A DNA stretch of 64,000 bases from Unio delphinus (Eukaryota; Mollusca; Bivalvia; Unionida; Unionidae), in contig JAQISU010000025.1 of assembly GCA_029339505.1 (NCBI GenBank), positions 4,165,001-4,229,000 on the forward strand. Direction: 5' to 3'. How positions within the stretch are numbered: position 1 is the stretch's first letter; each line of letters begins with the position of its first letter. Below are positions 9,974-62,712 of this stretch, in pieces. The translations under genes and the position numbers were made by a program. The notes under the pieces were generated by a model, which worked only from the letters and a program-made list of their open reading frames with translations, was not told where the DNA came from and searched no databases.

Positions 9974-10690
9974 TGGCACCAACTATGGAATCTTACACTG
10001 CTAGACTAGCTCGAGAGCGACTTGAAGTAATTAAGGAATGTATACCACTCCGTGCGTCTGTCAGGTGAAAATTAAACGAATATCAGGAATCTCATATGGA
10101 TTTTGCGGAGAGTTTTAAAACATTAGTCAGATCTGTTACTGAAACAACTATGCATCTTCTTCATCAACTTGAAAATAGAACTAAAACAAACTAAAGCAGC
10201 ATCAAGACTTTTTACAAGATCTTCCTGGTCAAATGCGTCAACTATCAAAACCTGTTACTAAAGAGAAACAACCGATGAATAAAAAAAATAGTCAAGAATT
10301 AAATAATAAATTTAATGAAAGTGCCTTAAACGTAATCGAAAAACCTGATCCAGATGAATTTCCAGCTGTTGTAGTTGCACGCTGTTATGAAGAGAGAAAA
10401 CAATGTTGAAAAAAGAGAAGAAAAAAAAATTACTAGTATACAACGCTGGGCTGATTTTTAAAACAAATTAAAACTCGAATATGCACAAAACGTGTATCGT
10501 TCCATATGAAGAACAAAAGCAGCACAAAAAAAAAAACACAAGAGAAGGAAATTATTCAATCTGTTCCCAAAAATTTGATTAGCTTAGACCTAGAACGTAT
10601 GAAAATATTAAAGATACGGATAATGATCAATTAGCGGAATATACTGCCAATGACTTTAATTTTGATGTATTACCAGCACATCAAAATTTG
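9974..10690 (+). pseudogene. V1: decayed copy of variable/acidic viral protein
   Basis: Starts near 'MAPTMESYTARLARERLEVI', which aligns with the N termini of the genes at 31676 (V2) and 60210 (V3). A later piece ('NDQLAEYTANDFN', about 10630-10670) matches the conserved C-terminal motif 'DELAENTTDFYGY' of V3. The centre holds lysine/glutamate-rich sequence with stops and A-run frame breaks. The function is unknown. As the first or second late gene beside the capsid genes it is probably virion-associated. It cannot be translated as one protein. Confidence 0.6.
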
Positions 10691-10719
10691 ATCAACGTGG
10701 ATCAGTACTAGTCAGAGTG

Positions 10720-11110
10720 ATCAATTCACTATTGCCGACCTAGAAAGAACCTTACGGAGATGGACTCAATGAAGGTACTGAGGGTTTATTTGAAACGATA
10801 GCCTCAAAGGCAATATCTTAGTGCCAAGAAACTAGGAGTGCAAGCTATTTACGTTGTCCATTATAAGATTATGGTGCTATTGGTAATATCGACAGTAAAA
10901 CGTTTTGTCAATCAAAGACTAGAACGATTAATACGACAACCTGAACCAGTGAAACTTGCCAGCACTGAAGTGATGCCTGTAAATGTCGGGAAAAAATAAA
11001 TCAAAGTGAAAATCAGAACCTAGCAGAGCTGTCTGATGAATACAAAAAAATATTGCTACAAATTTATTAGGAGGAAGTGGTCTTTTTCTTAGACGATATT
11101 AACTTTAATA
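10720..11110 (+). pseudogene. V1: decayed copy of Gly-rich basic viral protein
   Basis: Two conserved patches remain: 'YGDGLNEGTEGLFETIASKA' (about 10754-10813), equivalent to the GDGLG patch of the V2 gene at 30505, and 'IATNLLGGSGLFLRR' (about 11050-11095), equivalent to its C-terminal 'ITANMIAGSGL'. Between them are stops and frame changes. Position directly before the capsid gene is conserved in all three copies. Confidence 0.6.
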
Positions 11111-11117
11111 AGAATGT

Positions 11118-11967
11118 TTAAACGTATGTCCGATCCAGCATTCGACATGGACGCTCCAGTTCTCAACTATTAATCGATACGCGATTATCAGTAGCATTCT
11201 TATGATGCAGGGCAACCAAATCAGCGTGGACGTATCGAACTACAAGTTTCGGATACAAGTATATATTTCTTACTCGCAGAGGTGTTTATATAAGTAGAAG
11301 GTTCACTTGTATCATATTTCAGCTGTACGCCGTATGCAAATAATTTGCGTGATGGGTTTGTGAACAACGGAATTATGGCACTGTTTCGTAGCGCTACATA
11401 GATGATTGAGGTAAGAATTATTGAATCAATTCAAAAGACGTCCACGCTGCTACAACAGTAGTAGGATTTACTAGATGGTCTGATGATTACATATGATCAT
11501 CTGATCCATCAATGATATATGCTAAATATATTACCAATAATAATGATCATGGTAAGTATATTACATTTCGGAGAGCTGCAGGCAATGGGATTGTACAACA
11601 AGATGATTTTCAACATGCAACGTGACCAGCTGCTAATTTTGATGTTATATGAAGCGATAATGTAAATTAGAATTAGGATTTGAAACACGCGTAGCAATGT
11701 TCTTATGACTTTTTTAAATTGTAATTCCAATGTCTCATATTTTGGGAGTTTGTAGAAATGTTAGAAAAAAATATTTTTTTCTGGACTAATTATACAGTTG
11801 TACTTGTGCTAAGGACGTACCACGTACTAATGTGTAAACAGCATACCAGTTGATGGCTACAGATCAATCTCTGTTATACTCACGTGATAAATCGATGGTG
11901 CTTGAAGGTGCTTGAATGTGTTGGTGGACGAATGTGAGTCATTGATGCTCCAATAGAAAGCATGTAA
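11118..11967 (+). pseudogene. V1: decayed major capsid protein, internally deleted
   Basis: Starts 'MFKRMSDPAFDMDAPVLNY', matching the V2 and V3 capsid starts. It keeps 'GRIELQVSDTSIYFLLAEVF', 'GFVNNGIMALFRS' and 'HILGVCRNVRK', and near the 3' end a shifted frame with 'VIDAPIESM' before TAA at 11965-11967. It is about 590 bp shorter than the 1.44 kb V2 gene. The missing part is between the central Cys-Arg-Asn-Val segment and the last ~60 residues. Many stops are present. The oldest-looking of the three capsid copies. Confidence 0.7.
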
Positions 11968-11998
11968 CTGTAATTAGATCGCTAATTATATTGAAAAA

Positions 11999-12390
11999 TG
12001 TCATGCAGTCACGTTAATGTAACTCTGACTCCGTGTCAGATTAAAAGCTTACAACCCGCGTCAATGAAAACAAAACGCTAAAATATAACAAGATCGTTGC
12101 GGTCAAAGAAATTGTCACTGACAAAAGTCAGAGTCAAAATTCAACGTTACTACGAAAGTCAAGACCGGAATACGAATTTCGTTTGATACAGGTGCCAAAT
12201 CAGGTGGAATATTCCACTTCTTGCAGCGATAAAATGGTTAATAGCTGCTTCTGCACGGGCTACGGCAAAAGCCGCTGCGGTGCATGATGTCGGACCCTCT
12301 CACGGAATGGCAGTAAAAGAGCAACAGGAAAGGGACGTTACCATAAGGAAAGTTTTAAATAAAGATCTAGCCAACAACAACCACAAAGAC
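11999..12390 (+). pseudogene. V1: decayed short basic/Ala-rich viral protein
   Basis: Begins 'MSCSHVNVTLTPCQIKSLQP', clearly related to the V2 gene at 28508 ('VTLTPGQIKKLQ') and the V3 gene at 57208. The reading frame breaks after about 30 codons. Downstream low-complexity sequence encodes Ala/Lys-rich patches in shifted frames ('ARATAKAAA'). Confidence 0.6.
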
Positions 12391-12504
12391 ATAAAACGAC
12401 CAATATGTCTTAACCCGGTCGTCTAAGATTGATGGCCGCACATTATGAGTGTGGATTAATACTTAATGGCACATTAAGTAGTTAGACACTAAACTATTCT
12501 TCCA

Positions 12505-12840
12505 CTGTCAAATTTTCATTTAATTAATGTTGCTGGAAAATTCAAAATAATTTGTTTAGATTTGCTTTCATGCGAGATCGATTGCATATCAAGCACAATG
12601 AAAGTTAAACAAGTATCATTAATCTTGATAATAGTTATGGCCGAGGTACTTGTTGGGTTCCATACGAAACTGATCCACGGGTATTTGTTTTTTTTTATTT
12701 AAATTCGTACGAACTTCCTCCGCCGAAGGAATTGATATTAAATACGAAACCCTTTCCGTCCTGGTGTTCAACATTACAAACACAGACAATAACTGATCCG
12801 CCAAATATGTGGCCGTGAATCAAATGCTTTACTAAACGCT
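12505..12840 (+). pseudogene. V1: decayed adenain-like cysteine protease
   Basis: The piece 'IINLDNSYGRGTCW' at about 12612-12660 aligns with 'IINLDNSTGSGSHW' of the V2 protease at 28193. The catalytic His of V2 is Cys here. 'SYELPPPKE' follows, after an insertion, where V2 has the Asp-bearing 'FDSYGLAPPKE'. A glutamine-containing 'LQTQTITDPP' matches the expected Gln region. Stops and frame shifts are numerous, so it is inactive. Confidence 0.6.
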
Positions 12841-12949: not shown

Positions 12950-13240
12950 CTTCCTCTAAATAAAAACACGTAACAGACGGAATATCGCTAGAAAAAGTAA
13001 ATAAAATCATAAGTGATGAAACTTCCGAATTACGATATCTTCCAAATGTGGATCCAAAAGAAGTGGTTGTATTTAGCGATAAACAAGGAAATTTATAAAC
13101 GAGTAATCTTTCATTACAGGATATTATCATCAACATTAATGGAGTAATCGAAAACAGCAGAGCTACTGGATAGTAACGGAAAACCATTAAGCCCCGTGTT
13201 GTAATATCAACGATATCATATGATATGAGCAATCGAGGAC
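12950..13240 (+). pseudogene. V1: remnant of small N-terminal-motif viral protein
   Basis: 'VDPKEVVVFSDKQGN' followed by 'TSNLSLQDIIININGVIE' aligns with 'VDPNELVVFQDRQGKLKTSN' of the V2 gene at 27180-27637. One stop interrupts the conserved part and the helical C-terminal half is lost. Confidence 0.6.
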
Positions 13241-14273: not shown

Positions 14274-14539
14274 TCTGATTGCAAGAGCTACTGCAACAGA
14301 TCACAATAATACAACTCCATAAAAAACAACGAAGAAATCAGTGAGCCCCAATAACCATGAATTTAACGACAACTTTAAAAATTAAAATTTCTGTATAGCA
14401 AATTGTGCGAACACTATTACGAAATTCAATATATGGCCAAATATTAGATCAAAATCAATAGTTGGATTACAAGAAAGAACTTACCTGGTGTTTGCAAATA
14501 TAAACAAACCAGATAAAAAAAAAAACCGATTGGCTGGTT

Positions 14540-15568
14540 GTAGGAATACCGACAGGCAGGCAGTTATCAAAAAAAGGAAATCTAGATTGAATTTCGGTGT
14601 AGAAGAAAGTCAATAACGGGCAGAGAGTCAATATATATATATATATATAAGTGTCTGCGACCGACATTATCGGCCGCGTAGACATACATTCCCCAGATTA
14701 CGCTCTAGGAATACATACATCATCAATTAGATCAATGTTAGTATGGCCTGATAAAGCTCCTCTGGCACCCGCACCAATATTTAAACCTAACTTAACTGGT
14801 TTTACGTCAAATAACCGTTCGCATCATGATATGAAGGTGATATATTGTTGCAAATATAAAAAGACTGGTCCATACAACCATTTTTCTCAAGGCATCAAAT
14901 ACTCATATTTGGCTTAAACAAATAATAGATCGCTCGTCCAAAAATACATGCTTTCTTCATACAATAAATCATAAATATGATCAACCACAAACAAAATTAC
15001 GCAACCGTTTTGATGAGAATCTTATTTATATTGATGGGTCTGGCAGTGGAATTATCGAACAAATATACATTTTTAATTAAATTGCAGTTGACACTGAATT
15101 CACTCATCAGTATATTATACAAGGAACAATTAAGGATTTATGAATTAGTTTTAAGTATATTTTACACAATCAGTATCCAATTACAAAAGCAAATATTGCA
15201 AATTGTAACGTTCCTGGATATAACGCAGCTGTGAATTATACTGATGATCTCATCTGTGAATATTTTTCTAACATTGCTGAGTCATGTAAAAAAAAAAATC
15301 CCACCGGCGATATAACAATGGACATCAAAACGAAGGTCTTTATATTTCACCAGGAATTGTAAATAAAAAATCAACTATTTCATTGAATATTGTATGTGAT
15401 GTAACTGATGGCAGCGTATTAAATAAATCTCGAGAAAGCAAAGCAAGTATACCACGGATGTATTCTAAATACATTTATTCGTCATGTACCTCCTGGATAT
15501 CAGATTGTACATTATCCAATTCGTCCGGACTATCTACTAATGTCATAATCCGTTATTATCAAGAATAA
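14540..15568 (+). pseudogene. V1: decayed minor capsid (penton-like) protein
   Basis: Recognisable blocks are 'IHSPDYALGIHTSSIRSMLV' with 'WPDKAP' (about 14688-14763), matching 'INSPGYAVDIYQSSRRTILG' of V2, and 'SLNIVCDVTDGS' (about 15380-15415), matching the start of the V2 C-terminal block at 24904. The sequence between is AT-rich with stops. A (TA)n tract at 14631-14649 interrupts it. The gene ends close to the palindrome of foldback copy R, so the element boundary may have been cut by it. Confidence 0.6.
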
Positions 15569-15659
15569 ATTTCAAATTTACTGCTTGTTTAGGATTTTTA
15601 TATCATATCGCTGCGATGTCTGCAGTAATGCAGTTTATAGTGACGTCTATCATGCCGGA

Positions 15660-17300: not shown

Positions 17301-18820
17301 TCAAATGTACTGACCAAAACACCAACTTTCTTGACCTACACGTGTGACTAAATATGAATCTCTACGTAAAATCTTCATTTGTAATCAAGTTTGCCCATTT
17401 ACACTTAATCATAAAAATATATTATATAATTTAACAACACGCGACGGTTCACAACTCACACGTATTTACGTATGTCATGGTGACAATATTTACATTGCCC
17501 TTAGACGGGACAGAACATATGAACGTTGTCATAATTATTGATGAATACATCAATGAAGGCTCCTTGTTAACACAGCGACAGTTAACATAATTACGGAGAG
17601 ATCATATTATTATGATTATGTGTGATAAAGATCAGATCTACATTATGCGTAATCCTGTATTGATTTTGATCGGATTAAGAAAAATGTTACCAGCTTCATG
17701 GGAATGCTGTCTCAAAACGTATTTGTAGTAACTTTTCTACTGGCACATTTTTGACAGAACAAATCTTCTTTCACTTTTTGGAAAGCTACTAGTTTCATCA
17801 TCACTAGACAATTTTAGTTTTCTTAAACGTCTATTGATAGTTTGGTTTGCTTTATATTCATCAGATAATTTTGATCTATTTGTTTGAGATCGCGTGATAG
17901 AGATAATAATTTGTCCACGTCTGTTTCTGCGGCCGAAGATAACATTCATTGCTGACTTTGCTATGATTTTCTATTCCTCAAAAGGCGTGGCTTTGGGGTT
18001 TTATTTCTTAATTTTTACAGCTGACAAAATCTAGATGAAGCCAGAAACTTGACATTCAGAAACAAACAAGGATAATGTTTTGTTAAGACAACCGTGAAAT
18101 ATTTTTCATCAATAAATAAAATATATTTTACAAAATTTTAGACTCTACCACATCTGGTAGTTATTTTCATGGCAAGATAAAACTGACTACATACGTGTCC
18201 TTAGAGCCGATTTATCACCCCTACACAATCATGAAAATTTATTTTGTGTTTAAAATTCTGAAAATAAATACCGATTTAGCAATAATATTTTCGACACATT
18301 CTACGGACCGCGGGGTGATCTGGAAATATTTATCGATGGAAATATTATTTCATTATCAGTCTGACCTTAGGATATTTCTTATATTTCCCAATTAAACCAC
18401 ATACATAATTCTAAATATGTATGATAGCTCACAGGTTATGAAAACAGGATGTTGTTCTTATTTGAGTCAATGAGATATCACACGACGATTTTCAAAAGCC
18501 CCGTTGAAACATTCAAACATAAACTGTGACAAAGATTCATATAATTCCCCCAGTATGAAATTAGAGAATAACAATTATTATTGACATTACCGATTTTAGT
18601 TGACAGTGTCTGATTTCTTCATCAACATATGCTTCATAATTGTCGATAATAGTAAGTCTCACACATTCTTTTCTACATTTATAAATTATATATAATAGTA
18701 ATTGTCAACATTATAATTTTAAAGCACTTGCCATATATTCGTCAGCATTTTCTTATAACTTTGTAAATATTGTAATGTTTACATTTGTAATGATACTATC
18801 GCTTCATCTTTGTGTATTGT
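17301..18820. other. Unassigned, possibly degraded viral DNA
   Basis: No gene could be assigned. Because a decayed replication-gene block follows at 18.83 kb, this may be further viral sequence too decayed to name. A hydrophobic stretch 'NVVIIIDEYINEG' (about 17521-17560, +) resembles a Walker B strand, but no Walker A was found. A 70-codon basic frame at 17737-17949 (-) is unrecognised. Confidence 0.3.
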
Positions 18821-18829
18821 GTACCAACA

Positions 18830-18980
18830 CATTGTACGCACAACTGATTCTCACCACATTCTAGCACCACAACGTAAATACGGTTTTGGTCCTTGGCTTT
18901 CACGAAGTATGCCTTATACATGATATCCATATAATTCATTTACAATGAGCTACAAAAAACAGCAGGGAGTATTTCATATC
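18830..18980 (-). pseudogene. Decayed copy of Cys/His-rich viral protein
   Basis: On the minus strand 'NELYGYHV' and 'GPKPYLRCGARMW' match 'NEFCGYHLQ' and 'GPLSYIRCGVGVRGKS' of the intact gene at 62762-63085. Stops separate the patches and the zinc-binding Cys residues at the N terminus are not recovered. The neighbour on the + strand is also the same as at 63 kb. Confidence 0.6.
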
Positions 18981-19029: not shown

Positions 19030-19740
19030 ACCAAATAATATTTCTTGGATTATCGGTGACATACTTGACCCTGTCCTTGCTAATGAAAAATTTGCTGTAT
19101 TGAGTAAAAATTACAAACCAGTAATATCGACTGGCATTGACAAACTGTATCTTATAACCGCGGTTATTTAAATGATATATCCGCGGAATGATAAACCCAG
19201 CGTTGGTGATTTAGATACGATGAAATATTCGTCCTTGACTTTGTCAAGGTTAAATTGTGTAGCCGAACGAATAAGCAAACATTTTACAAATGTGACAATG
19301 TTGAAATAAACTAACAGATCAATGACTTGAGAAAGTTAACAAATGGGCCGAAGTAGTCAAGGATATTGGAGCTACTATTAATGATGTCAATATGATAGAA
19401 TAAAACCACTAAACTTTCCAATAACAGTATACACTATAACACAATAGATTTGAAACGAATCGAACCATTATAAAAAATAAGGGGATTCTAATTGAAATTA
19501 TTGATTATAATGCATTCGCGTGGACTAGAGCAGTACATACCTTTCCTCGAAATCGAAATGTTAGATTTTACCGTGGAGATATGTTGAATTTTATCGTGAA
19601 ATATAATAAAAAGAAACCACTATCCGTATAGTTTTTTCGACGTTCCCTTTCGTCCAATTATAACTTGTATCAGTTTGTAAGAACTGACGCTGAAATACAT
19701 CGTTTAGAATCACCAGATGAATAAATCAAAACACTTTTCC
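19030..19740 (+). pseudogene. Decayed copy of PolB-like replication protein, N-terminal region
   Basis: Patches in order match the gene at 63129-64000: 'SWIIGDILDPVL', 'STGIDKLYL', 'YPRNDKPSVGDLD', 'NCVAERISKHFTN', then 'IEIIDYNAFAWTRAVHTFPR' and 'RFYRGDMLNFIVKYNKKKP'. It extends a little beyond what the 63 kb copy shows ('YQFVRTDAEIHRLESPDE'). Frameshifts and stops break it into at least four pieces. The order and divergent neighbour prove a second copy of this viral block. The polymerase identity itself is the less certain part. Confidence 0.6.
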
Positions 19741-24628: not shown

Positions 24629-26044
24629 TTACGATTTCACAAACAGACTAATTTGTAAAACCTCACCTCTTAAATCAATCAGATTATTGGAATGGTCAGT
24701 GAGTTTAAAATTAATTCTCGTTAACGAATCATTCTGACATCGCATATAGATTGAATTAGTTGGATCTTCAATGACTAAAAACCCTGGAGGAGCTTTTGGT
24801 GCAAATGAATATAAAATATATCCCTGCTGGGCTTGATTTGATATTTCGAGATTTATTTGGTAACTTCCCTCGATAACATCATATACTAAATTCAATGCAA
24901 TCACCGAGGATATAATAACGTTTTGAGGAGCGATATGTCACCCGTAACCATCTGGGTTATTATTATGTTTGAGGACATTTGTTTGTGACATTTTTTTCCA
25001 TGCGGCGAGTATTTGTAGGAAATACTCATCGAGGAGATCATTACAGATTTGTTTAGTTCATATGCGTTATACCCAGGAAATTTGAAATCGGGTAAATCAG
25101 CTTCTGTGATATTGTAACCGGTTAGGAATTTTTGTTTATCTCCGTTTCTGTCATTAATTATTATTTGAATTATTCGCGTGTTGATACATTCCATGTCGGA
25201 TACAAGCTGATTTAATATCTCAATATATTTTATGACCTCGCTGCGTGAACTCGTTATATCAAAAAGATGTTTTTGGAAACTGTCGTAGTCGTTCTAGTTG
25301 TGTTCTTTGTAATTGATTAATCTCTTTCAAATAATCAATGACGTTTTTTAGAGTGAATACAATGGCAGTGGATGAATCAGGAGTTTTCTCAAAACCAAAT
25401 TCCCATTGTATGGTTTTGTTATCAAGAAATGTGAATCTATCAGCTAATTTTGCATTTTTTATATTTGGTAAATAATTTCGATATGATGGAGCAATTTCGT
25501 GGTATGATTGTACATCTTTGACATAATCGGGCTTTTTAGGTTCGGGTATTTGATAAGATGTCCGAGGTGGGTTTTCAGGCCAACCCAGTATTGTCCTTCT
25601 CGAACTCTGATAGATATCTACGGCATACCCGGGCGAGTTTATCTCAATGGCGGATAATAGTGTTGGTTCATGAACTGTTATAGCGAGTTTTGATTCTTTT
25701 CCAGTAATGGATTTTATTCTGCGTTGTAATTCGTTATTGATTTGTTCAATTTGGTATGACCCTGATGGTAACGAAACAACGTTCCAGTCTTGAGTAGCAT
25801 CGGGTTTATTCTTACTCTCAAACACCAGGGAATTATTCGGTTGTTGACCGCCAAATGCCTGTGATCTAATATTTGGCCAATTATGGTATACTCGTAATTT
25901 TGCTAGTGCTATCTCCTTCACGGGAATCGCATTAGGGAAATTCACACTGAATTCAGGATTGGTTGATGTTATTGAGATCATGCTGGTTTTCACCGGTGTG
26001 GTATTTTCAGCTATTCGTTGAAGTAGTTCTTGCGATGTCGCCAT
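24629..26044 (-). pseudogene. V2: minor capsid (penton-like) protein
   Basis: The start ATG at 26044 opens an intact 261-codon frame to 25259, followed in shifted frames by pieces at 25194-24901 and 24904-24629. The first part has 'SLPSGSYQIEQINNELQRRI', then 'INSPGYAVDIYQSSRRTILG' with 'WPENPP'. The last has 'GYILYSFAPKAPPGF' and a C-terminal 'LIDLRGEVLQISLFV'. This order, with a Gly-Ser-Tyr-x-Ile block, a leucine-Gly-Trp/Phe block, a Pro-rich turn and a closing R-G-E strand, matches a capsid-associated family that travels with Polinton-type capsid genes in animals. I infer a minor capsid or penton role. At least two frame breaks make it a pseudogene. Confidence 0.65.
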
Positions 26045-26189
26045 TGCTATTATATTCGTGTTGTTTTTCTAATTTTGACATCTCGGAATCATAAACACGT
26101 ACCATCGCTGAGAACTCACTATCGGATATTAATGTGTCATCGAGTGACGACGATATTATCGAGGATAATTGCGAGTACGCTGCTGACAC
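26007..26189 (-). CDS. V2: small ORF before minor capsid gene
   Basis: A 60-codon frame, Ser-rich at the N terminus ('SQLSSIISSSLDDTLISDSE') and then 'MVRVYDSEMSKLEKQHE'. The second part is kept in V3 just before its minor capsid start (about 56435-56495) in spite of the deletion next to it. The 3' end overlaps the minor capsid start by 38 bp in another frame, as in compact viral genomes. No family is recognised. Confidence 0.4.
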   Translation of the reverse strand: MSAAYSQLSSIISSSLDDTLISDSEFSAMVRVYDSEMSKLEKQHEYNSNGDIARTTSTNS

Positions 26190-26243: not shown

Positions 26244-26531
26244 TTATTTTTTTATAATCGAAATAATTCCCGCGATTGTTGTCGCCGCTGATATACAAAT
26301 TGGAACAGCTATCGGATCAACCATTGTCACCGAGGAGAGTATAAAACCAACTCCGGTGATTACACCTGATAACGAGTACACGGTAACGTCAACAGCGGTG
26401 ATTCTTCGTCGGTATTTTTTTATTTTTACTTGATACTCCTCAGTGAGAGTTTTGAGTTTAGTTTGAAATTCTCTGACCTGATCATAGCGATATTCCTGTG
26501 ATGACATTTTATTTATTACAACAGAATTCAA
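26244..26531 (-). CDS. V2: small two-TM membrane protein
   Basis: Intact 95-residue frame. Residues 1-45 are charged with coiled-coil character ('FQTKLKTLTEEYQVKIKKYR'). Residues about 50-90 form two hydrophobic segments separated by 'MVDPIAVP', ending in 'SIIKK'. This fits a virion or host-membrane protein with both ends on the same side. It lies 9 bp from the end of the spike-like gene. A matching remnant is in V1 (13915-14050). V3 has lost it. No named family is recognised. Confidence 0.55.
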   Translation of the reverse strand: MNSVVINKMSSQEYRYDQVREFQTKLKTLTEEYQVKIKKYRRRITAVDVTVYSLSGVITGVGFILSSVTMVDPIAVPICISAATTIAGIISIIKK

Positions 26532-26540
26532 TTAAGTTGT

Positions 26541-27117
26541 TTACTCAAATCGGCTACAAATTCTGCATACCATGTTAATAAAACTCTAGCCAAATTATTA
26601 TCAGTTGTTGTTATCGTGAATCGTTCAGTTGTTCCCTTGTCGATGATCGTTGATATCATATTGTTGACCCCAAATGAACTCATTGATGAAATATTAAATT
26701 GCGTCGTTGATATTAGTGTTAATCGATAAATACCCTTGACGGTTGCGGTGATATCTAATTTGTTGTTTGTAGGTGTCCACGCAAAAGATCCGTGTTGGAT
26801 CGTATATACCGTGTTTATATTTTTCTCATGAGGAATTTTTACTTTTTCAGTACTTATATCATCCTCGGCAGATCATCTCTGATGACATCGCTGGTCGTTT
26901 TAATATCATCGTTGATAGCTTCTATTCGCCGATTAATCGCGGGTATTTCATTGCTGGTTGCTTTAAGATCATCGATGGATTTTTTAAGTTCTCGTAGTTT
27001 TATTTCAACTTTATCATATGTGATAATAAACAATTTCTCAATGAGATTTTTACGAAAAGTTGTAAATTGATCGACATGACCTGCACAACTAGATTGTAAT
27101 GATGCTAGTTCTAACAT
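26541..27117 (-). pseudogene. V2: coiled-coil spike/fibre-like protein
   Basis: The frame from ATG 27117 to 26854 encodes 87 residues that are almost entirely heptad-like helix ('LRELKKSIDDLKATSN', 'INRRIEAINDDIKTTSDVI'). After a frame break, 26850-26541 encodes a Thr/Ser/Asn-rich, beta-predicted C-terminal domain ('LDITATVKGIYRLTLISTT', then 'ERFTITTTDNNLARVLLTWY'). A helical stalk followed by a compact beta head is the usual design of trimeric virion fibres. I infer such a role from architecture and position only. The frame break makes this copy inactive. V3 has deleted the gene. Confidence 0.5.
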
Positions 27118-27179
27118 AGCTGTTTTTATCTCTGTTACGTGTTAGCTTCGGTGTGGTCACGGTGGATTTAAAAAAAAAA

Positions 27180-27637
27180 TTAACATGGGTTTGTCAATAT
27201 TGTAATGATACTTTTTTGTAAATCAGTAAATTTATTAAATGTATTTATATGATCGTCATACTTATCATTGAGTGATTTCAATGAATTCGCCGTGTTATCG
27301 AGTGTTAATATTTTATCTGTGATTGTTGAAATGAGAACACCCGGTTTGAGTTTACCCTGATCGGAAAACAACGCGATAGTATCTTCTACTGCGTTGCGTT
27401 GTTTTGTCAAAATATCATCAAGAGAAAGATTACTCGTTTTCAGCTTTCCCTGACGATCTTGAAATACAACTAATTCATTGGGATCTACACTTTCTAAGTT
27501 CAACATCTCGGATATTTCATCTTCGATTATTTTTTGTTACATCACCGGTTGCAGATATTTCCGCGGTGGGTTTTTTCAGGCTTGATAAAGATCTCCCCCA
27601 AATATCAATCATGTTAGTTTATATAATTTCTCTCTAA
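27180..27637 (-). pseudogene. V2: small virion-associated protein, frame-broken
   Basis: ATG at 27637 begins 'MIDIWGRSLSSLKK', which runs about 40 codons before a frame break. The 108-codon frame 27506-27180 continues with 'VDPNELVVFQDRQGKLKTSN' and a long helical part ('TANSLKSLNDKYDDHINTFN'). The N-terminal W-G-R-S and the 'VVFxDxxGxxxTS' block recur in V1 at 12.95-13.24 kb. The function is unknown. It may be the base of, or a partner for, the following coiled-coil protein. Confidence 0.5.
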
Positions 27638-27644: not shown

Positions 27645-28193
27645 TTACTCGTATATTCGTGTTCGGTTTTTATGGTTGTTTTCCCGATGATGAAATAGAA
27701 TGAGGAAATTCAATACTTCTATGCTGCATATTGGTGGGTCATTCATTTTCTGTGTTGGTAGCGTAGAATACCAGATATGAGTTTTTAAGCGGTTTATATA
27801 ACGCATAAATTCTTTAGGTGGCGCTAATCCATATGAATCGAAATAAACAATCACACGCGGATCAATCGCGTATGCAACCCAGTGAGATCCAGATCCGGTG
27901 CTATTATCGAGATTAATGATACCGGTTTCAACGCTGTTTGGTTGTTGTGGTAATTGATCTTTCATAAAGACACCTCTCAGGTTTTTTATCACTAGTTTTT
28001 TATCAGCATCAAGTAAATCAAAATTTGACATGGGAACTATTGTTGTTAATAAACTGTTCCTAGTCTCTGGTCGTTTCCGCTGTACCATGAATACGGAGTT
28101 CCTGGTAGTCTTAGACCCTTTCCCTTTTTTCGTATCCCCGCCCCTTTTTCGGTTCATATGATTGAGCAATAGTATGTACTCCTTTTGCACCAA
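27645..28193 (-). CDS. V2: adenain-like cysteine protease
   Basis: A 182-residue open frame. The basic N terminus ('NRKRGGDTKKGKGSK') probably belongs to the preceding gene's tail. The protease proper starts near residue 50. Catalytic positions can be read in order: His in 'GSHWVAYAID', Asp in 'VYFDSYGLAPPKE', Gln in 'STLPTQKMNDPP' and Cys in 'ICSIEVLNFLILF'. This His-Asp/Glu-Gln-Cys order defines C5-type (adenain) proteases used to mature capsids in adenoviruses and Polintons. The residue after Cys is Ser where Gly is usual. The C terminus may be frame-altered ('HHRENNHKN'). It is the only copy of three with all four residues. Confidence 0.75.
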   Translation of the reverse strand: MVQKEYILLLNHMNRKRGGDTKKGKGSKTTRNSVFMVQRKRPETRNSLLTTIVPMSNFDLLDADKKLVIKNLRGVFMKDQLPQQPNSVETGIINLDNSTGSGSHWVAYAIDPRVIVYFDSYGLAPPKEFMRYINRLKTHIWYSTLPTQKMNDPPICSIEVLNFLILFHHRENNHKNRTRIYE

Positions 28194-28508
28194 GAGCTGC
28201 AGCAGCTCCTAACGCGGCGGCTTTACCAGCTGCAATTAATGCTGGAATCGCAGCGTGAAGTGGGAATACACCACCTGATTTTATCACGTTTTTTATCGCG
28301 GCCGCACAGACAGTGATCTGAACACCCTTTTTTCTTTTATGGCATCATTGAAGTGTTTTATCTGACGAACTGTCAATGACACTTTATTCTTACCGCCAGA
28401 CTTCTGATTGTGCTTCAGCGATATTGTTCCACATTTTTTTGCTGATTCCGATTGCAATTTTTTAATTTGACCAGGAGTTAACGTAACACTAACATGACAA
28501 TATGACAT
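28140..28508 (-). pseudogene. V2: short basic/Ala-rich viral protein
   Basis: ATG 28508 opens 71 codons: 'VTLTPGQIKKLQSESAKK', then 'SLKHNQKSGGKNKVSLT' and 'QIKHFNDAI'. It has two strand-helix units with an alternating 'LT..QIK' pattern. After a frame break near 28320 the sequence encodes 'AAIKNVIKSGGVF', an Ala-rich hydrophobic segment ('LIAAGKAAALGAAAALG') and a Lys/Gly-rich tail. The architecture (repeat domain, hydrophobic helix, basic tail) suggests a minor virion or membrane-active component. It overlaps the protease frame. The same gene is at 11999 (V1) and 57208 (V3). Confidence 0.5.
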
Positions 28509-54984: not shown

Positions 54985-56432
54985 TTAGGATTTTACAAAC
55001 AGACTAATTTGTAAAACCTCACCTCGTAAATCAGATTATTTGACTGGTAAGTGAGTATAAAATTAATTCTCGTTAACGAATCATTATGACATCGCATATA
55101 GACTGGATTATTTGGATGCTCAATTATTAGAAACGCTGGAGGAGCTGTTGGTGCAAATGAATATAAAATATATACTTGTTGAGCTTGATTTGATATTTCG
55201 AGATTTATTTGATAACTTCCTTCGATAACATCACATACTAAATTCAATGCAATCACCGATGATATTTTGACGTTTTGAGGAGCGATATGCCGCCCGTATC
55301 CGTCTGGGTCATTATTATGCGTGAGAATTGTTGTTGTTTGTGGTTGTTCTATTTTCTTCCTTGCGTTGTGAATCAATCATCGATGGTGTCACTGAGAGAT
55401 TTTTTAGTTCTGGTACAACATATCCTGGAAACTTAAAATCGGGGATATCTTCTACACGTACATTAAGTTTCTTTGCAAATTCTGTTCTCGTTTTAGGGTT
55501 ATTATCACCTAATATAAATTGAATAACTCCCAAATTAAGTAATTCCATGTCAGCGATAATTTTATTACATACCTCCATGTATTTGATGACTTCATCTCGG
55601 TTTGGCTTGATTTTACTAATTTCTATTATGAGTAGATTTTTAATTCTTTCAAAATCGTTTTACATCGCGGTAAATACTTTAGTAATTTCTGATTTATTTA
55701 TTGTCTTATGTGGGTTATCGCCAGTGATTGTATCTAAACAAGCACCACTCAAACGGTTATCTGTTGGCATCAAATATCTTAGATCATTAGGTCCACTAAT
55801 GTCGAAGGGCAGGAGAGAGAGTATTGGATTACGGATTGGGAATAATGGATAAACGAATTGGTGTTTTTTTACCATAACCATGATAATTCTCCTTCACGGA
55901 AACATAATCAGATTTTTGTGGTTCTGGTAGTATTTGATAAGATGCCTGATGTGTTTTCTCAGGCCATCCTAACACGGTTCTTATTGAGATTTGACAGATA
56001 TCTAAGACATATCCGGGTGAGGTTATCTCAATCGCGGATGATAGTGTTGGTTCATGAACTGTTATAGCGATTTCCGATTCTTTTCCAGTAATGGATTTTA
56101 TTCTGCGTTGTAATTCATTATTGATCTGTTCAATTTGGTATGATCCAGATGGTAACGAAACGACGTTCGAATCTGGAGTACCATCGGGTTTAATCTTACT
56201 CGCAAACACCAAGGAATTATTCGGATGTTGACCGCCAAATGATTTTGATTTAATATTACGCCAACTATGGCATACATACACGTAATTGTGCCAGTGCTAT
56301 CTCCTTCACGGGAACCGCAGTAGGGAAATTGATACTGAATTCAGAATTCGTTGAGGTTATTGAGATCATGCTGGTTTTCACCGATGTGGTATTTTCTGCT
56401 ATTCGTTGAAGTAGTTTTTGAGATGTCGCCAT
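54985..56432 (-). pseudogene. V3: minor capsid (penton-like) protein
   Basis: ATG 56432 starts like V2 ('AENTTSVKTSMISITSTN'). It keeps 'SLPSGSYQIEQINNELQRRI', 'ITSPGYVLDICQISIRTVLG', 'VEDIPDFKFPGYVVPELKN' and the C-terminal 'YILYSFAPTAPPAFL', with TAA at 54985-54987. Frame breaks occur near 56270, 55870, 55620, 55320 and 55010. The part 55620-55900 ('FDISGPNDLRYLMPTDNRLS') does not align with the V2 equivalent, while both flanks do. Upstream it is fused to the truncated protease by a deletion. Confidence 0.65.
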
Positions 56433-56504
56433 TGTTATTATATCGTGTTGTTTTTCTAATTTTGACATCGCGGAATTATAAACACGTACCATCGCTAAAT
56501 TCTT

Positions 56505-56778
56505 TAGGCGGCGATAACCCATATGAATCGAAATGAACAATTGCACGCGGATCAATCGCGTATGCAACCCAGTGAGTTCCAGGCCCACTGCTGTTATCAA
56601 AATTAATGATACCGGTTTCAACGCTGTTTTGTTGTTGTGGTAACTGATCTTTCATAAAGACACCACTAAAGTTTCTTATCGCTAGTTTTTTTTTAGCAGC
56701 ATAGAGTAAATGAAAATTTGACATGGGAACTATTGTTTGTAAACTGTTCCTAGTCTCATGCCGTTTCCGCTGTACCAT
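56505..56778 (-). pseudogene. V3: truncated adenain-like protease
   Basis: Shares 'FSGVFMKDQLPQQQNSVETG' and 'IINFDNSSGPGTHWVAYAID' (catalytic His) and 'HFDSYGLSPPKEF' (Asp) with V2. Directly after this block the sequence jumps to the segment before the minor capsid gene, so the Gln and Cys half is gone. Inactive. Confidence 0.75.
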
Positions 56779-56959
56779 GAATACGGAGTTCCTGGTAGTA
56801 TTAGACCTTTTTCTGATCGTTTCTTTTTTTTTTGGTATCCCTGTCCGGTAGCTTTCTTCAGTGCCATCCCTGTCGCTGTACCAACGGCTCCTAGCGCGGC
56901 GACTTTTGCTACCGCTGGAGCTGCTGCTGCAATTAATGCTAGTAACGCAGCGAAAAGTG

Positions 56960-57208
56960 TGATTATACCACCTTATTTTATCATGTTCTTAATCGCAGCC
57001 GCAGAGAGAGTTATCTGAACAACCTTTTATCTTTTATGGCATCGTTGAAGTGTTTATCTGACGAGCTGTCAATGACAGTTTATTCTGACTACCAGACATC
57101 TGATTGTGCTTCAGCGATATTTTGGTTCCACATTGTTTTATCTGATTCCGGTCGCAATTTTTTAATTTGACCAGGAGTTAACGTAACACTAACATGACTA
57201 TTTGACAT
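56960..57208 (-). pseudogene. V3: short basic/Ala-rich viral protein
   Basis: ATG at 57208 ('NSHVSVTLTPGQIKKL'), then frame-broken repeats ('VWLTARQINT'-like). An Ala-rich segment and a Lys-rich tail continue to about 56820 in another frame. Same gene as 28508 in V2. Confidence 0.5.
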
Positions 57209-57270: not shown

Positions 57271-58675
57271 TTAAAAATATTGCATATTTTCCACTGGTGC
57301 ACAACTACTTTCATTCGTCCACCAACACCTTCGAGTAGCATTGATTTGTCACTGAGAATTACATGAACTGCTCTGTAACCAGGATGAGAAAGATCAGCGG
57401 TTACACGAGCTCCAAAATATATGTCAACGATCTATTGTCTGATTAAGTCAAGATGTTCCAGTGGAAAGTAGTATAGGTTTTTGAAATCCCATTGTGATAT
57501 TTGCAAACCGGTATCTACATTATTATCGCGTCCCATAAATGATAGCAAACGATGATACAAGCATGCTATTTGGTTTTGTTCGTAATTAAGTAAAATATCC
57601 TCTGTTGGTTCTTGTTGGCCGTTTACACTCAACTAGACTTCATTAACACCAAATTTATCAAATATCATATGGCTGCGTAATTGTGAACCCAAACGCGCTT
57701 TATCCTGTAACGCAACAAATATATGCCGCTTCGTAGAAACACCTTGTTTTGATGCCAGTTGCCAAGTAAATGTGCCATTATCAATACTATATATGATATC
57801 CGAGGTAGTGGTTAGCCAACGTAGTAATGATATGCCGCCTGTACTCATAAATGATAGCAATTTTTGCTCTACGGTAATCGATGGATTCATTACTGGCATC
57901 CACAGTGTTAGTTTTGTTATATTCACCTTGCCACGGTCATTATCCGGAAATGCAGGATCTGCTGGAATTCTTCAGATTGCGTCATTATCATCACCTTTTC
58001 ACACTAAGGCTACTGTGTGCTTCGCTCCATAGATAACGTTTCTAACATTTCTGCAGAATCCAAATATATGATGTAGTGGAATCGCGCATGAGAATAATCT
58101 ACGATTTCCTTCCAACATTGATATACGTGTTGCAGCTCCTAGGTTGTAATTAGGATCATTATTTATAATCATATTCTCGGTATCGACATTAGCAGCACCA
58201 GCCTGAGTTTTTGGTTGCCTTATAATATATGGAGTCGGTCCAGCGCGATCATTAATATCTTTAGCAAACATCATAGCTGGACCTATCGATCTTGCATAAT
58301 CGTCAGAGTATCTTGCCAACCCCACTATTGTTGTGGAAACATCAACATCATGTTCTATTGATTCAATCTGTTTTCCGTCAATCATGTATCTAGCGCTGTT
58401 AAATAGCGCCATGATACCATTATTGACAAAACCGACTTTGGCACCAGGTGCATATGGTGTATCAGATGCAACATTTCTTAAATTTCTCCTTCTACTTCGA
58501 TAAACGCTTCAGAGGGTAGAAAGAATTTGCTGGTATCATGGACTTGAAGTTCGATTCTTGATCGAAGATTCGGTTGCACTGCATGATAGGAAAAATACTG
58601 ATAATTAAGTAGAGAATCATTCTTGGGCATTGGGACGTCCATATCAAACGTTGGATCAGGAGCCGATTTGAACAT
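57271..58675 (-). pseudogene. V3: major capsid protein (double jelly-roll-like)
   Basis: ATG 58675 ('FDMDVPMPKNDSLLNYQYFS'), TAA 57271-57273 after 'VENMQYF', three codons longer than V2. It keeps 'RSRIELQVHDTSKFFLPSEA', 'NNGIMALFNSARYMIDGKQI', 'FGFCRNVRNVIYGAKHTV', 'VMNPSITVEQKLLSFMSTGG' and 'FMGRDNNVDTGLQISQWDFK'. The longest open piece is 137 codons (58412-57999). There are breaks near 58480, 58000, 57630 and 57430. A deletion shortens the 'YPIYYF' strand region present in V2. The reading lesions differ from those in V2, so the two copies decayed separately. Confidence 0.65.
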
Positions 58676-58679: not shown

Positions 58680-59124
58680 TTATATATTTCTTGATCTAAG
58701 TCGTGATCTCGCTCGCGATATCAGGCCACTTCCCGCTTTCATGTTTGCAGCAATATTATCCTGGACGCTGCTCAGTGATGCTATTTTGAAATCCACCGCG
58801 TTATTTATGATTTTACTAATACTCTTGGACGTAATTTCCGTAGATGGTAGTGGCCCTTGTTTTTTTATTACCGGTTTTCTTCGCCGCCGAACTAACGCTA
58901 CTAGTGTTTCTTTAGCCGCAGAAAATGCCCTCCCGGCAACATCACTACCATCAAGAGCTTTCATTGACAATTGTTTTGCGATTGGTGCTATTTTGGAACC
59001 ATTCTTGCAAATAACCCTGCACTGGTATTGCCGAGAAAATCTCCATAGTACGCTCTATAAACTGGCAATCGTGAGTTTACTACATAGACCATAGTTGGTG
59101 TGCTGTGGTTGTAGTGTATAATCA
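58680..59124 (-). pseudogene. V3: Gly-rich basic viral protein
   Basis: ATG at 59124 and 'TMVYVVNSRLPVYRAYYGD', matching V2 at 30505. After a break near 59010, 'LVALVRRRRKPVIKKQGPLP' and 'IAANMKAGSGLISRARSRLR' follow, ending in two stops just before the capsid ATG. This shows where the gene normally ends and that the V2 extension is secondary. Confidence 0.55.
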
Positions 59125-59187
59125 TCTTATTTAAATGCTATTTAGCTAATCGTAAAAATCCGTAGGATTTTCAACGAAGTCATCAAA

Positions 59188-60210
59188 TTAATCACTATAG
59201 TAACCGTAAAAATCCGTAGTATTTTCGGCTAGCTCATCAATAAACTCTCGATATACACCAATATCCACGATACCACTCTCAAATATTAGTCTGCAGATAT
59301 CAGCTGCCTCATTAATTACTTCTGGTGAGTAATTTCCGGCTCGTTTCCCTCCTACGAGAACTTCTAATCGTGATATGTCCCCGAGAATACTATTAGGACA
59401 ACGAACTAGACCACTATTTGAAACTCTGTTATTGGTTACACTCTGAGAAAAACCCTTCCCACTACTACTACTATAACCAGTTGCACCCTGTGTATCATCA
59501 TCTTGTAAATTTTTAAAAAATTCATCATTAGATTCATCTTGATCAGATGGCATATACAATCATTGCTTATCATCATCGTCAGGTGGTAGTTGTCGTTGAG
59601 GTGAGAAAGATATTTTCTTTGAAGTATATTGTCTTTTTCTTTGCAATCTTTGCGGTTTTTGTGGTTTTAGTTTTTCATATTGATCATACACTATACCCAC
59701 CATTTCTAGATATTTAATGTATGATGTATTTGTTGTATCAATTCGACTTGTGTTACTTTTGATTTTGTAAATCACATTTGCCCAATGATCCATACTTTTA
59801 ATATACGTGTATTGTTCTGTTTTCAACATTTTTTTCCTGTTTTCGTAAGTCGCAAAAGCATGCGCAGGAATTCCTGCTTGATCAGTCTTATCAATTGTTG
59901 CTAACCCCTCCTCATTTAGCTCGCACGTAATTTCTCTACTGTTTCTTCATTGGTTTTTTATCAGGAGGGGGTTTTGTTAACAGCGCTGATGTTTTTTCAG
60001 TTTTCTTTGCTATTTTTTCAAGTATTGGTACAGTATCCTTAGTAGCAGTGGTTTTTGGTTTGAATAACTGTTGAGTGTCTGCCGCAAATCAGTCTGAAAT
60101 TGTTGTCTCGTTTGGAGCATATTTCGAACGGAATCACAAAGTGGAATAAATTTCTTAATCGAAGCTTATCGTTCACGTGCTAATTTAGTTGTTAGGGCTT
60201 CACCTACCAT
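59188..60210 (-). pseudogene. V3: variable/acidic viral protein
   Basis: ATG 60210 ('MVGEALTTKLARER') keeps the N-terminal motif that V2 has lost to a stop. Frames 59829-59560 ('WANVIYKIKSNTSRIDTTNT', then 'LPPDDDDKQ') and 59559-59188 ('DQDESNDEFFKNLQDDDTQG', 'GDISRLEVLVGGKRAGNYSP', 'DELAENTTDFYGYYSD') follow. It lacks the Glu/Gln/Arg run of V2 but has Asp-rich patches instead. TAA at 59188-59190. Confidence 0.5.
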
Positions 60211-60454
60211 TATAAATATAATATACGATCTAAATTGTAAGTAAAAAAAACACACCCGAAATTCTTTTGTGTGTTATATACTTCAGCGTAGTGATAAATC
60301 ACCAGTGACACCTGTCTATAGAATTTTATTGTAGTTGAGTCAGCGCATACTTGTCTATAGTACTTCTGTTCCATACCCTGTATTACTCATGTATGTCGTG
60401 TTTACTATGTTGAGGCAATCAAAATAGAATTTTCATTTTGGCGGATAATCTCTT

Positions 60455-60778
60455 TTATTGTTTGATTTTCGAGTTCATTGTGCGTTTGATTGCATATTGT
60501 TTCCCCAATTCGTTTCTGACCTTTTCGACAGCAGTAAATAACGGAACGAACTTATTGATGTCGTTACAAAATGCAAGGAAGTCATAAATAGTGTGTTGAA
60601 TTCTCTTTATAAAGGAATAGGATTTTAATAACACATATCTGTTATTCCTAGCGCTATCATAAATATCTTGAAATTCAGAAAGAATTTGATTACAATTTAA
60701 TTTATCTGACAATTGAATTCCTTGATTTTTCAAACTTGAAATCTCGTTAATAATGATATTCATATTTTCGAAATTCAT
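60455..60778 (-). CDS. V3: small helical viral protein
   Basis: Intact 107-codon frame. It is mostly helical, with 'IIINEISSLKNQGIQLSDKL' at the N terminus and 'LFTAVEKVRNELGKQYAIKR' at the C terminus. Only two Cys and no known motif. It is the first gene of the leftward cassette, next to the repeat block at 60857. The V2 counterpart (31935-32240) has lost its start. The function is unknown. An early or regulatory role is possible from its position. Confidence 0.55.
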   Translation of the reverse strand: MNFENMNIIINEISSLKNQGIQLSDKLNCNQILSEFQDIYDSARNNRYVLLKSYSFIKRIQHTIYDFLAFCNDINKFVPLFTAVEKVRNELGKQYAIKRTMNSKIKQ

Positions 60779-60856
60779 ATATGAAATATTATGTATTTAA
60801 TATGAAATTAAAAAAAATTGGGGGTCAAATTTTGACCCGTTTTTTCGTATGGTATG

Positions 60857-61150
60857 ATGAACTCCATTCGCAATAAGGTATATTCACATCTTTTTACGCC
60901 TAGAGATATTATGCAAGTTATATATGATGATGAACTCCATTCGCAATAAGGTGTATTCACATCTTATTATGCCTAGAGATATTATGCAAGTTATATATGA
61001 TTATATATGACGATGATGAACTCCATTCGCAATAAGGTGTATTCACATCTTATTACGCCTAGAGATATTACGTAAGTTATATATGATGATGAACTCCGTT
61101 CGCATTAAGGTGTATTCACATCTTATTGCGCCTAGAGATATATATTAAAA
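60857..61150. repeat. Viral ~73-bp tandem repeat, four units
   Basis: Each unit contains 'gatgaactcc(a/g)ttcgca', 'taaggtgtattcacatctta' and 'gcctagagatatta', with small differences. Two further half-related cores ('gggtgttattcacatcgg', 'aggtgttattcatatctgac') follow to 61260. V2 has one unit. Confidence 0.9.
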
Positions 61151-61590
61151 ACCCCGTTTGGAGCACCTCGGGTGTTATTCACATCGGAAAGACGAAGAGG
61201 TTCCATATATAAGACAACACATCCCCATTTGGAACCCCTCAGGTGTTATTCATATCTGACCGGGACCAGAGGTACCACGAAACATAGTCTCCAAGAAGAG
61301 ATCTAACTCGTCAAATAACGGGTAAGAACTCCAAGAAGGTATAATGGACGTCACATTTACATATATACATATTTGACATATAGAACAGCACAGCGTTTTT
61401 CAACCCCCAATTCGAGTGTTATGGATAGTTTGTAAGGCATACATATATACAATGACATTGTTATGGTATTTACAATGAATGATACATGAAATATAACAAT
61501 GGATTATAGAGGACAGCACAAGACAATACAACATATAACAATGGATTATAGGATGACAATGGTTTGATGGTATGACCGGAGCACTTCTAC

Positions 61591-61699
61591 ATTCAAACAG
61601 AAACCACCATACCCCAAACAAAATCACCCCGGGTTGATTGAAAAAACACATTCACACCGTGTCACAGTGTGTGTGGTAAGGTGGTTTCACGGTTTGAAT
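61591..61699. promoter_or_regulatory. Conserved nested hairpin in V3 noncoding block
   Basis: The outer arms 'attcaaacagaaaccacc' and 'ggtggtttcacggtttgaat' enclose an inner 'cacac...gtgtg' pair. The same layout and flanks ('ttcgaatggctt' on the right) occur in V2 at 32755-32863. Confidence 0.5.
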
Positions 61700-62189
61700 T
61701 TCGAATGGCTTAAAGCCCCCAATTATATATAGAAAAACCTTCAGATCGGTACCGTCGAAAATAATGACTGCTACGAGATTCGATGGTCCCCAGGACGAGA
61801 TTCCATATGTGTATACAATACACTAGTGTCCGTAATCTATAAATCCATAATTTTGAATACGATATATGTGTATCATGTGAAGGGTTTTATCACAGTTATT
61901 CTGTATGCCGTGGCATATTTTCCAATTTTTGTATCCACTTGTTGTTGTTGTGGTTTTTCTTTCCATGTTAGGGAGGAATTTGGGTAGTGCCGTTTTGTTA
62001 CATCTTATCAGTTTTGGTCAAAGATGCCATATAGTTGAGGTCAAATTGATATAATGATGACAACAAGAGATTGCCTTATGCAGAACTTTTCTACCTGCTG
62101 AAACATTAAACCAACACAAAAAAGCCATTATCCCATTGAGATACGTGACTGCAAAAGTAGAGTTATAGTTGTTTCAAACTGCACACACA

Positions 62190-62712
62190 AGCGCACACGA
62201 GTTATTCCCATTGGTGTTCCAAAACAGAATTCAGACGTATGTAAATTGAATTTTACGTCCGGTTCTTTTGGAAATCCCTGACCTAGTTATATTCTGTACT
62301 ACTCATCGTACTGAGGGTCTACAAATATCAAAATACTTTCCAACTTCAGTTATTGGTTTAAATACTCTTTCCTCGTTATTTTCTGTAATAAATGATTTTA
62401 TGGGATTCGCATTTTTCGAGTGTTTACTTCCCCATTTAGTATTCTGACTTTGTGTGATAGGTCGTAAATTATCTAAAGAAGAATCATATTTATACCTTTT
62501 ATGTGATCAAGAACAAAACCATCCTTGATCATTCCATTAAATGCCTCGTAGACGAATCTGTGATTAAGATATTTTTCTTTCCAGCGCCAAATATAAGATA
62601 TCCATTATTATTCACAACACCAACTGGATTCTTCAGTCTGTGGTTTCTGACAATACCGTCACGAGATGCTTCATAACTGGTAATCACGGGATGTGGTTGA
62701 AATTCTTGTTTC
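62190..62712 (-). pseudogene. V3: HNH endonuclease with C-terminal DNA-binding repeat
   Basis: On the minus strand, in order: 'TSYEASRDGIVRNHRLKNPV' and 'NNNGYLIFGAGKKN', then in a shifted frame 'NHRFVYEAFNGMIKDGFVLD' with a His next, then 'SLDNLRPITQSQNTKWGSK' and 'ITENNEERVFKPITEVG', then 'ISKRTGRKIQFTYV'. The YE-S--G-VR start, the 'hhD-H' strand and the 'NLR-----QN' helix are the layout of phage and viral HNH homing-type nucleases (NUMOD4-HNH-NUMOD1). Two or more frame breaks inactivate it. It may have been a free-standing homing gene or a genome-processing nuclease. Confidence 0.65.

Follow-up and report, generated by a model that had tools for sequence, protein, structure and literature searches.

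Polintons or Mavericks (Polintoviricetes) carry a set of six genes, comprising pPolB, an RVE integrase, an Ulp1 protease, a packaging ATPase, a major capsid protein (MCP) and a minor capsid protein (PMC11071308), and the same capsid module is present in virophages (PMC11071308). Adintoviruses are defined by a PolB with an OTU-like domain, a hexon recognizable by BLASTp and an RVE integrase with a chromodomain, and genomes with adenovirus-class virion proteins but without recognizable PolB or integrase have also been reported (PMC11071296). Mavericks have been reported in all 39 of 39 surveyed mollusc genomes (PMC10294476) and in the Mercenaria genome, with values of 1.69 and 1.93 when the table columns are read as percent (PMC8905726), and fossils of this kind are therefore to be expected at a locus such as the one analyzed here, a stretch of 64,000 nucleotides (hereafter the window) from the freshwater mussel Unio delphinus (assembly GCA_029339505.1, contig JAQISU010000025.1, positions 4,165,001 to 4,229,000, forward strand). 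The analysis revealed three broken, colinear capsid cassettes, which are likely fossils of Polinton/adintovirus-type viruses integrated at least twice in the mussel chromosome. Literature searches on double jelly-roll with freshwater mussel and on Unionida with Maverick returned, judged by title, no paper on such a locus.

The decayed cassettes, here called copies 1, 2 and 3, are located at 9.91-15.64 kb (+), 24.62-33.55 kb (-) and 54.97-63.1 kb (-). Comparison of the window with itself by blastn showed two long parallel blocks, in which 24620-33428 pairs with 54974-62401 in six main colinear pieces of 71-86% identity, and a weaker inverted match to copy 1 at 11.1-11.8 kb (65-68%; copy 2 pairs with 11132-11768, copy 3 with 11132-11533). 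Using stop-free pieces of copies 2 and 3, tblastn matched seven genes in copy 1 with the order kept (best E per gene 8e-4 to 1e-18), and the order common to the copies is the start of gene 1, pX-like, MCP, small gene 4, protease, coiled-coil and penton-like. The background of these searches amounted to three isolated matches outside the copies (E 0.002-0.006) and one that a non-coding piece gave within copy 1 (E 0.006); a cluster of eight matches at 18.78-19.62 kb represents a fourth fragment. At E <= 0.001, nine MCP and penton relatives and the copy-2 protease piece had no match elsewhere in the window. These comparisons bear out the sequence-only reading of the locus, which had proposed the same genes in the same order in three copies and at least six genes shared by every copy, the first of the seven being weakly matched. 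The copies it delimited are real, with edges set slightly too narrow, as copy 1 starts from about 9.91 kb and copy 3 continues beyond 62.71 kb. The clustering of three copies is notable, though the window had been picked out for clustering.

The major capsid gene was characterized mainly through its relatives. A search with a 169-aa piece of copy 3 retrieved 24 relatives, and an alignment of 12 of those 24 with six single-frame window pieces retrieved 117, including single open reading frame (ORF) proteins of 470-480 aa. The Pfam domain DJR-like_dom was found in all 27 of the 27 longer relatives scanned (352-480 aa, best E 2e-66), and the window's own piece at 57999-58508 in copy 3 matched it weakly (E 7e-4; 19.2 bits, below the cutoff of 27), which upholds the earlier claim of a major capsid gene when checked against a double jelly-roll profile. 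When breaks were counted from stop-free pieces aligned on a relative, the MCP of copy 2 (28563..29999, -) consisted of six pieces covering 452 of 474 guide residues, with three same-frame breaks and two frame changes, and that of copy 3 (57303..58675, -) of five pieces covering 431 of 474, with three same-frame breaks and one frame change. The copy 1 remnant (11114..11964, +; tblastn with the relative P0047, best piece E 2e-31) retained 138 of 474 residues in six pieces, likewise with three same-frame breaks and two frame changes.

The adenain-type protease proposed from the sequence was also recovered, since the copy 2 gene (27645..28208, -) matched Peptidase_C48 above the cutoff (21.6 bits, cutoff 20.7) and Peptidase_C5 weakly (16.6 bits, cutoff 21.3), the latter profile reaching E <= 0.01 in 2 of 137 window pieces. 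Its counterpart in copy 3 (56476..56988, -; tblastn) shares 81% DNA identity with copy 2, and a remnant in copy 1 (12493..12803, +) was detected by tblastn at 49-53% identity (E 2e-18). The penton-like gene of copy 2 (24629..26068, -) is divided into the ORFs 24629-24937, 24901-25293 and 25259-26068, and had 22 protein relatives at E <= 10 (best E 2e-83), of which two near full length, P0008 (451 aa) and P0011 (439 aa), span all three ORFs. With P0008 as query, tblastn located the broken gene of copy 3 (54985..56369, -; best E 5e-54, with four frame changes between matched pieces) and the remnant of copy 1 (14338..15638, +; four matches, E 2e-11 to 2e-6), whose six stop-free pieces cover 182 of 451 guide residues. 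For copies 1, 2 and 3, the penton-like gene showed, respectively, 1, 1 and 0 same-frame breaks and 4, 2 and 4 frame changes.

Freshwater mussels were the source of every relative that carries an organism name, namely 7 of the 22 penton relatives (five from Sinanodonta woodiana and two from Potamilus streckersoni) and 8 of the 117 MCP relatives (all Sinanodonta). Over 60-70% of the penton query, the Sinanodonta proteins P0009 and P0010 were 69-71% identical to it and the Potamilus proteins P0013 and P0016 were 64-66% identical; the relatives from both genera are mostly annotated as hypothetical host proteins, and the Sinanodonta MCP relative P0057 bears the UniRef name double jelly roll-like. 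The proteins P0047-P0051 are MCPs each encoded by a single ORF (470-480 aa) and share 56-72% identity with P0025, the sequence heading the query profile. Unlike the window copies they are unbroken, and they lie on contigs of 1.6-5.8 kb that may be viral or mussel DNA alike. The relatives used in the analysis were 27 of the 117 MCP proteins, selected by length, and 19 of the 22 penton proteins. PDB sequence searches gave no match, or only matches at E 0.07 and above, and IMG/VR searches with the penton, an MCP piece, the MCP alignment, the protease, the suspected PolB piece and the Cys-rich ORF confirmed no relative. An EutB match on an N-terminal MCP piece (E 9e-4) and PHROGs matches to coiled-coil and penton pieces were weak and were disbelieved.

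The remaining genes of the cassettes are small or fragmentary, and the names pX-like and fibre-like used for two of them are tentative. The pX-like small basic protein of copy 2 (29999..30505, -; ORF 29816-30517) is conserved in copy 3 (58680..59137, -; 85.5% DNA identity) and in copy 1 (10684..10999, +), where tblastn with the copy-2 ORF gave a joint E of 7e-10 including the MCP start and the copy-3 piece gave E 8e-5. Small gene 4 (28293..28535, -, in copy 2) is an ORF conserved in copies 1 and 3, the copy 1 remnant at 11974..12072 (+) being 61-67% identical over 24-33 aa (E 1e-7 and 6e-5). The coiled-coil gene, possibly fibre-like, is present as three ORF pieces in copy 2 (26528..27536, -), with weak Pfam matches of the coiled-coil type, and as a remnant in copy 1 (13003..13218, +; tblastn, 50% over 72 aa, E 1e-15). 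Between it and the penton-like gene, copy 2 has a small ORF with a hydrophobic stretch (26244..26531, -; SLATT match of 17.5 bits, cutoff 41). Gene 1 is represented by ORFs in copy 2 (30606..31630, -) and copy 3 (59188..60273, -), 88% identical in DNA over 235 bp (30606-30840), and is the weakest match in copy 1 (9910..10406, +), with 22 aa at 9996-10061 matched by opposite-strand translations only (E 8e-4 and 2e-3).

Upstream of gene 1, copies 2 and 3 have in common a small gene (31900..32133, -, and the ORF 60458..60796, -) and a 73/86-bp repeat, which is in tandem in copy 3 (60854..61141) and a single unit in copy 2 (32351-32450); in copy 3 this repeat lies between the HNH remnant and the capsid genes. 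The HNH endonuclease remnant of copy 3 (62306..62714, -) is spread over three frames, with HNH_3 matched on 62476-62604 (23.6 bits, cutoff 24.8; E 4e-5) and the other two pieces assigned by reading. Copy 2 ends within the same gene, at about 33.44-33.55 kb: the main DNA match stops at 33443, and a short stretch at 33384..33545 (-) is common, by reading, with 62306-62506. Copy 3 continues with a Cys-rich ORF of 112 aa (62765..63100, -), which has no believable family match, and a divergent rightward gene (63096..64000, +), which runs off the window end and has no Pfam or NCBIfam match. The fourth fragment has the same divergent arrangement, with a Cys-rich ORF remnant at 18775..18940 (-; tblastn with the 62765-63100 piece, E 3e-4) and the rightward gene start at 19046..19619 (+; tblastn with 63.4-64.0 kb pieces, E 4e-5 to 5e-7), both among the scraps at 18.78-19.63 kb. 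The rightward gene (63.1-64.0 and 19.0-19.6 kb) is suspected to be the N-terminal part of a Polinton PolB, which no search confirmed.

The degree of divergence differs among the copies. Between copies 2 and 3, ten DNA segments were 77.0-88.1% identical, with 86.8% in a segment without recognized gene, 80-88% in the capsid-cassette genes and 80.4% in the MCP; the capsid pieces of copy 1 shared approximately 44-59% protein identity with those of copies 2 and 3. Differences by codon position, tested against equal shares with 2 df, were 90:66:90 between the MCPs of copies 2 and 3 (413 codons; chi-square 4.7) and 65:58:98 between their penton-like genes (chi-square 12.4 over 342 codons; 68:61:108 and 16.3 with P0011 as guide). 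Between copies 1 and 2 they were 46:26:65 in the MCP (135 codons, chi-square 16.7) and 64:53:95 in the penton-like gene (179 codons, chi-square 13.4), so that a third-position excess was present in all comparisons except the MCP of copies 2 and 3. These patterns are read as suggesting that copy 1 split from copies 2 and 3 while the viruses lived, and that copies 2 and 3 split nearer their death, partly before it. Phylogenetic trees of four MCP blocks were built with up to 26 relatives and the copies, on tblastn matches able to read across breaks and not on the stop-free recount; rows covering <60% of a block were dropped, which removed copy 1 from blocks C and D. Copies 2 and 3 were sisters in blocks A, C and D (FastTree 0.94, 0.89 and 0.86; IQ-TREE 95, 79 and 76, respectively), and block A placed copy 1 nearest P0023/P0024, a weakly supported position (0.74; 66). 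The protein identities show a more distant viral source for copy 1 than for copies 2 and 3, its lineage placement being weakly supported, and the proposal that all three copies belong to one lineage appears doubtful given the block A position.

Regarding the six-gene Polinton set, two of the six features were found at the locus, the double jelly-roll MCP and the Ulp1/adenain-type protease; the other four may escape recognition because the copies are broken or cut, and an ATPase gene could lie beyond 64.0 kb. The likeness to Polintons/Mavericks extends to a probable minor capsid protein and to the linkage of the capsid module, and the locus differs from them in that pPolB, RVE integrase and ATPase are unconfirmed and no terminal inverted repeats (TIRs) or 6-bp target-site duplication were found. 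The suspected polymerase module also faces away from the capsid module, whereas vertebrate Maverick modules generally face the centre, with cane toad Mavericks as an exception (PMC8097293). With adintoviruses, compared by published description only, the locus shares the animal host, an adenain-type protease, a hexon-type MCP and penton-like and pX-like genes (gene labels tentative), and none of the defining features of that group was confirmed in the window. MCP, minor capsid and protease genes, which the earlier reading took together as defining Polintons and adintoviruses, are insufficient for that purpose: virophages share the module (PMC11071308), and pPolB and RVE integrase are unconfirmed in any copy, so the capsid module is not diagnostic alone.

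Several results weigh against a Polinton/adintovirus origin or its simplest form. Screening stop-free pieces from most of the window against Pfam revealed neither a pPolB nor a packaging ATPase domain; after low-complexity pieces had been filtered out, the scans covered, at 40+ aa, 63 of 63 pieces in 5.4-10.8 kb, 105 of 120 in 30.7-38.2 and 59.4-64.0 kb and 74 of 78 in 17.1-24.65 kb, and, at 60+ aa, 137 of 137 in 10.8-17.1, 24.65-30.7 and 38.2-59.4 kb, intervals that contain 192 pieces at 50+ aa. Integrase-like matches occurred at 42.4-43.0 kb only (rve_3 and Integrase_p58_C, below cutoff), and look like those of a long terminal repeat (LTR) retrotransposon; the copies themselves are truncated. 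Neither Pfam nor PHROGs nor PDB sequences yielded a convincing match for the penton-like gene, and its minor capsid label, also given in the earlier reading, therefore derives from resemblance and position. Copies 2 and 3 were apart in MCP block B, where copy 3 grouped with P0050 (IQ-TREE 88). No TIRs or target-site duplications were found at copies 2 and 3, a condition shared by 2,166 degraded vertebrate Maverick elements without discernible TIRs (PMC8097293). The cassettes could instead derive from a polinton-like virus (PLV) or another meldvirus with a different replication module, an origin that we regard as unlikely. It would agree with the virophage capsid module (PMC11071308), with the reported adenovirus-class virion genes lacking recognizable PolB or integrase (PMC11071296), and with the scans, which revealed no PolB domain and, inside the copies, no integrase. 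The same scanned pieces contained no virophage or PLV replication domain (PolA-S3H, Tlr1-like helicase and similar). An animal host, in which Polintons and adintoviruses are generally held to be the usual kind, and the 63.1-64.0 kb gene, which may resemble the N-terminal part of a Polinton PolB, argue against it.

The number of insertions was weighed separately. The sequence-only reading allowed repeated integration or duplication, and at least two insertions are likely; copies 2 and 3 may represent one dead integration duplicated within the host genome, leaving two insertions at the locus instead of three, a possible but less credible history. It would fit their sister position in three of the four MCP blocks, their same orientation, the about equal divergence of gene and non-gene segments and the lack of a third-position excess in the MCP (90:66:90). 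Two further results count against separate insertions: both copies have one TGA stop in common at MCP guide residue 250, and both change frame alike somewhere within guide residues 157-257 of the penton-like gene, its most variable stretch, as expected if a dead copy had been duplicated. The frame change, at 25259-25293 (-) and 55660-55892 (-), may be a single lesion common to both copies or may belong to the gene itself, and frameshifting has been mentioned as a possibility close to the 3' end of the penton ORF in some adintoviruses (PMC11071296). On the other side, copies 2 and 3 cease to be homologous at the stop codon of the penton-like gene. The first 30 bp beyond it are at shuffle level (113/500), the following 100 bp exceed shuffles (9/500) but not after removal of an 11-T run (116/500), and the 3-kb flanks past the penton end have only a 72-bp TA-repeat match in common. 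A duplication would require a breakpoint only a few bases away from the old junction, and two insertions are therefore favored, to a moderate degree. The MCP frame changes of the two copies (2 and 1) are at different places, and the third-position excess in the penton-like gene (65:58:98) is what living viruses would give; this excess and the shared frame change pull in opposite ways. An assembly artefact, with haplotype or duplicate contigs joined, is extremely improbable, since copies 2 and 3 are 77-88% identical in DNA with unrelated flanks, copy 1 capsid proteins are only 44-59% identical to theirs, values far too low for such an artefact, and unrelated sequence lies between the copies. 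It is also very improbable that the host kept the capsid genes for a function of its own; the clustering of three copies at one locus and the long ORFs of copy 2 (182-261 aa) would suit this idea, and the same-frame breaks and frame changes of the MCP in every copy and the about equal divergence of gene and non-gene segments of copies 2 and 3 speak against it.

Viral fossils of Polinton/adintovirus type remain the preferred explanation. From what is known of the family, the cassette would have encoded a virion with MCP faces, penton-like vertices, maturation by the protease and small basic and coiled-coil accessory proteins. By sequence identity, the virus behind copy 1 was more distant than the source of copies 2 and 3, for which similar viral DNA was probably inserted at two sites approximately 30 kb apart, as the unshared flanks suggest. 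All copies then decayed through the stops, frame changes and truncation observed, and the replication half would be left only as the suspected polymerase start beside copy 3 and in the fourth fragment. Production of particles from their own genes is now unlikely for any of the copies. The locus is of an ordinary fossil kind, common in bivalve genomes, with two oddities, the end of copy 2/3 homology at the penton-like stop and the divergent modules, which together could point to a variant. A mussel-specific branch in which the modules diverge from a central control region, the genome ends at the penton gene without long TIRs and integration follows a route different from that of the classic Polinton integrase acting at long TIRs is a rather remote prospect; there, the common end point of copies 2 and 3, which copy 1 approaches to about 80 bp, would be the end of the viral genome. 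The locus adds a multi-copy bivalve fossil record of double jelly-roll viruses with close single-ORF relatives on short public contigs. If the copy ends are a true viral terminus, they offer a handle on the mode of integration; otherwise this is one more Maverick-rich bivalve locus.

The surroundings of copy 1 contain a 1.4-kb inverted repeat (4071-5460 and 15661-17087, 86.7% identical by self-blastn), whose inner stretch occurs in both orientations and whose arms are within the 46-1,447 bp of vertebrate Maverick TIRs (PMC8097293). The penton-like remnant of copy 1 ends at 15.58-15.64 kb and this unrelated repeat begins at 15.66 kb. A reading of its arms as the TIRs of a 13-kb element enclosing copy 1 was ruled out, since the final exon of a host GH20 hexosaminidase gene is situated between them. 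The exon at 3089-3406 (+; Glyco_hydro_20 E 6e-11, and CHB_HEX_C profile 1-19, below cutoff) and the last exon at 5872-6079 (+; CHB_HEX_C profile 21-68, above cutoff) join in frame by a clean GT-AG intron and reach a terminal stop, as read by eye, and the left repeat arm is intronic. The outer end of the arms differs from the (AGT)2, (AG)3 or (AC)3A motif of vertebrate Mavericks (PMC8097293). An inversion between the repeats, considered as the cause of the opposite facing of the fourth fragment and copy 1, was also ruled out because it would start from a broken GH20 gene. The repeat is probably two copies of a separate mobile element.

The window is AT-rich (GC 31-45% in 2-kb steps), with numerous microsatellites and one intron-bearing host gene, and Rfam and tRNA searches of it found nothing. 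Weak Pfam matches to HTH_30 (E 1e-4), RVT_1, cobW, L7Ae, DUF5398, DUF3915, bZIP_Maf, RTX and MatC_N were disbelieved, and NCBIfam matches were far below cutoff. Between copies 2 and 3, the stretch 40430-43028 (+) is GC-richer (44-45%), has integrase-core and integrase p58 C-terminal matches below cutoff, and is probably a Gypsy-type LTR retrotransposon. A reverse transcriptase fragment at 438-710 (-; RVT_1 E 3e-4, below cutoff) is probably from a LINE. An ORF at 9027-9341 (+), upstream of copy 1, weakly matches a FLYWCH zinc finger (below cutoff, E 0.003). A dispersed repeat of approximately 200-300 bp was observed at 17095-17299, 34444-34727, 41102-41418 and 46502-46741 (67-77% pairwise identity), one copy of which begins immediately beyond the right-hand arm of the 1.4-kb inverted repeat.

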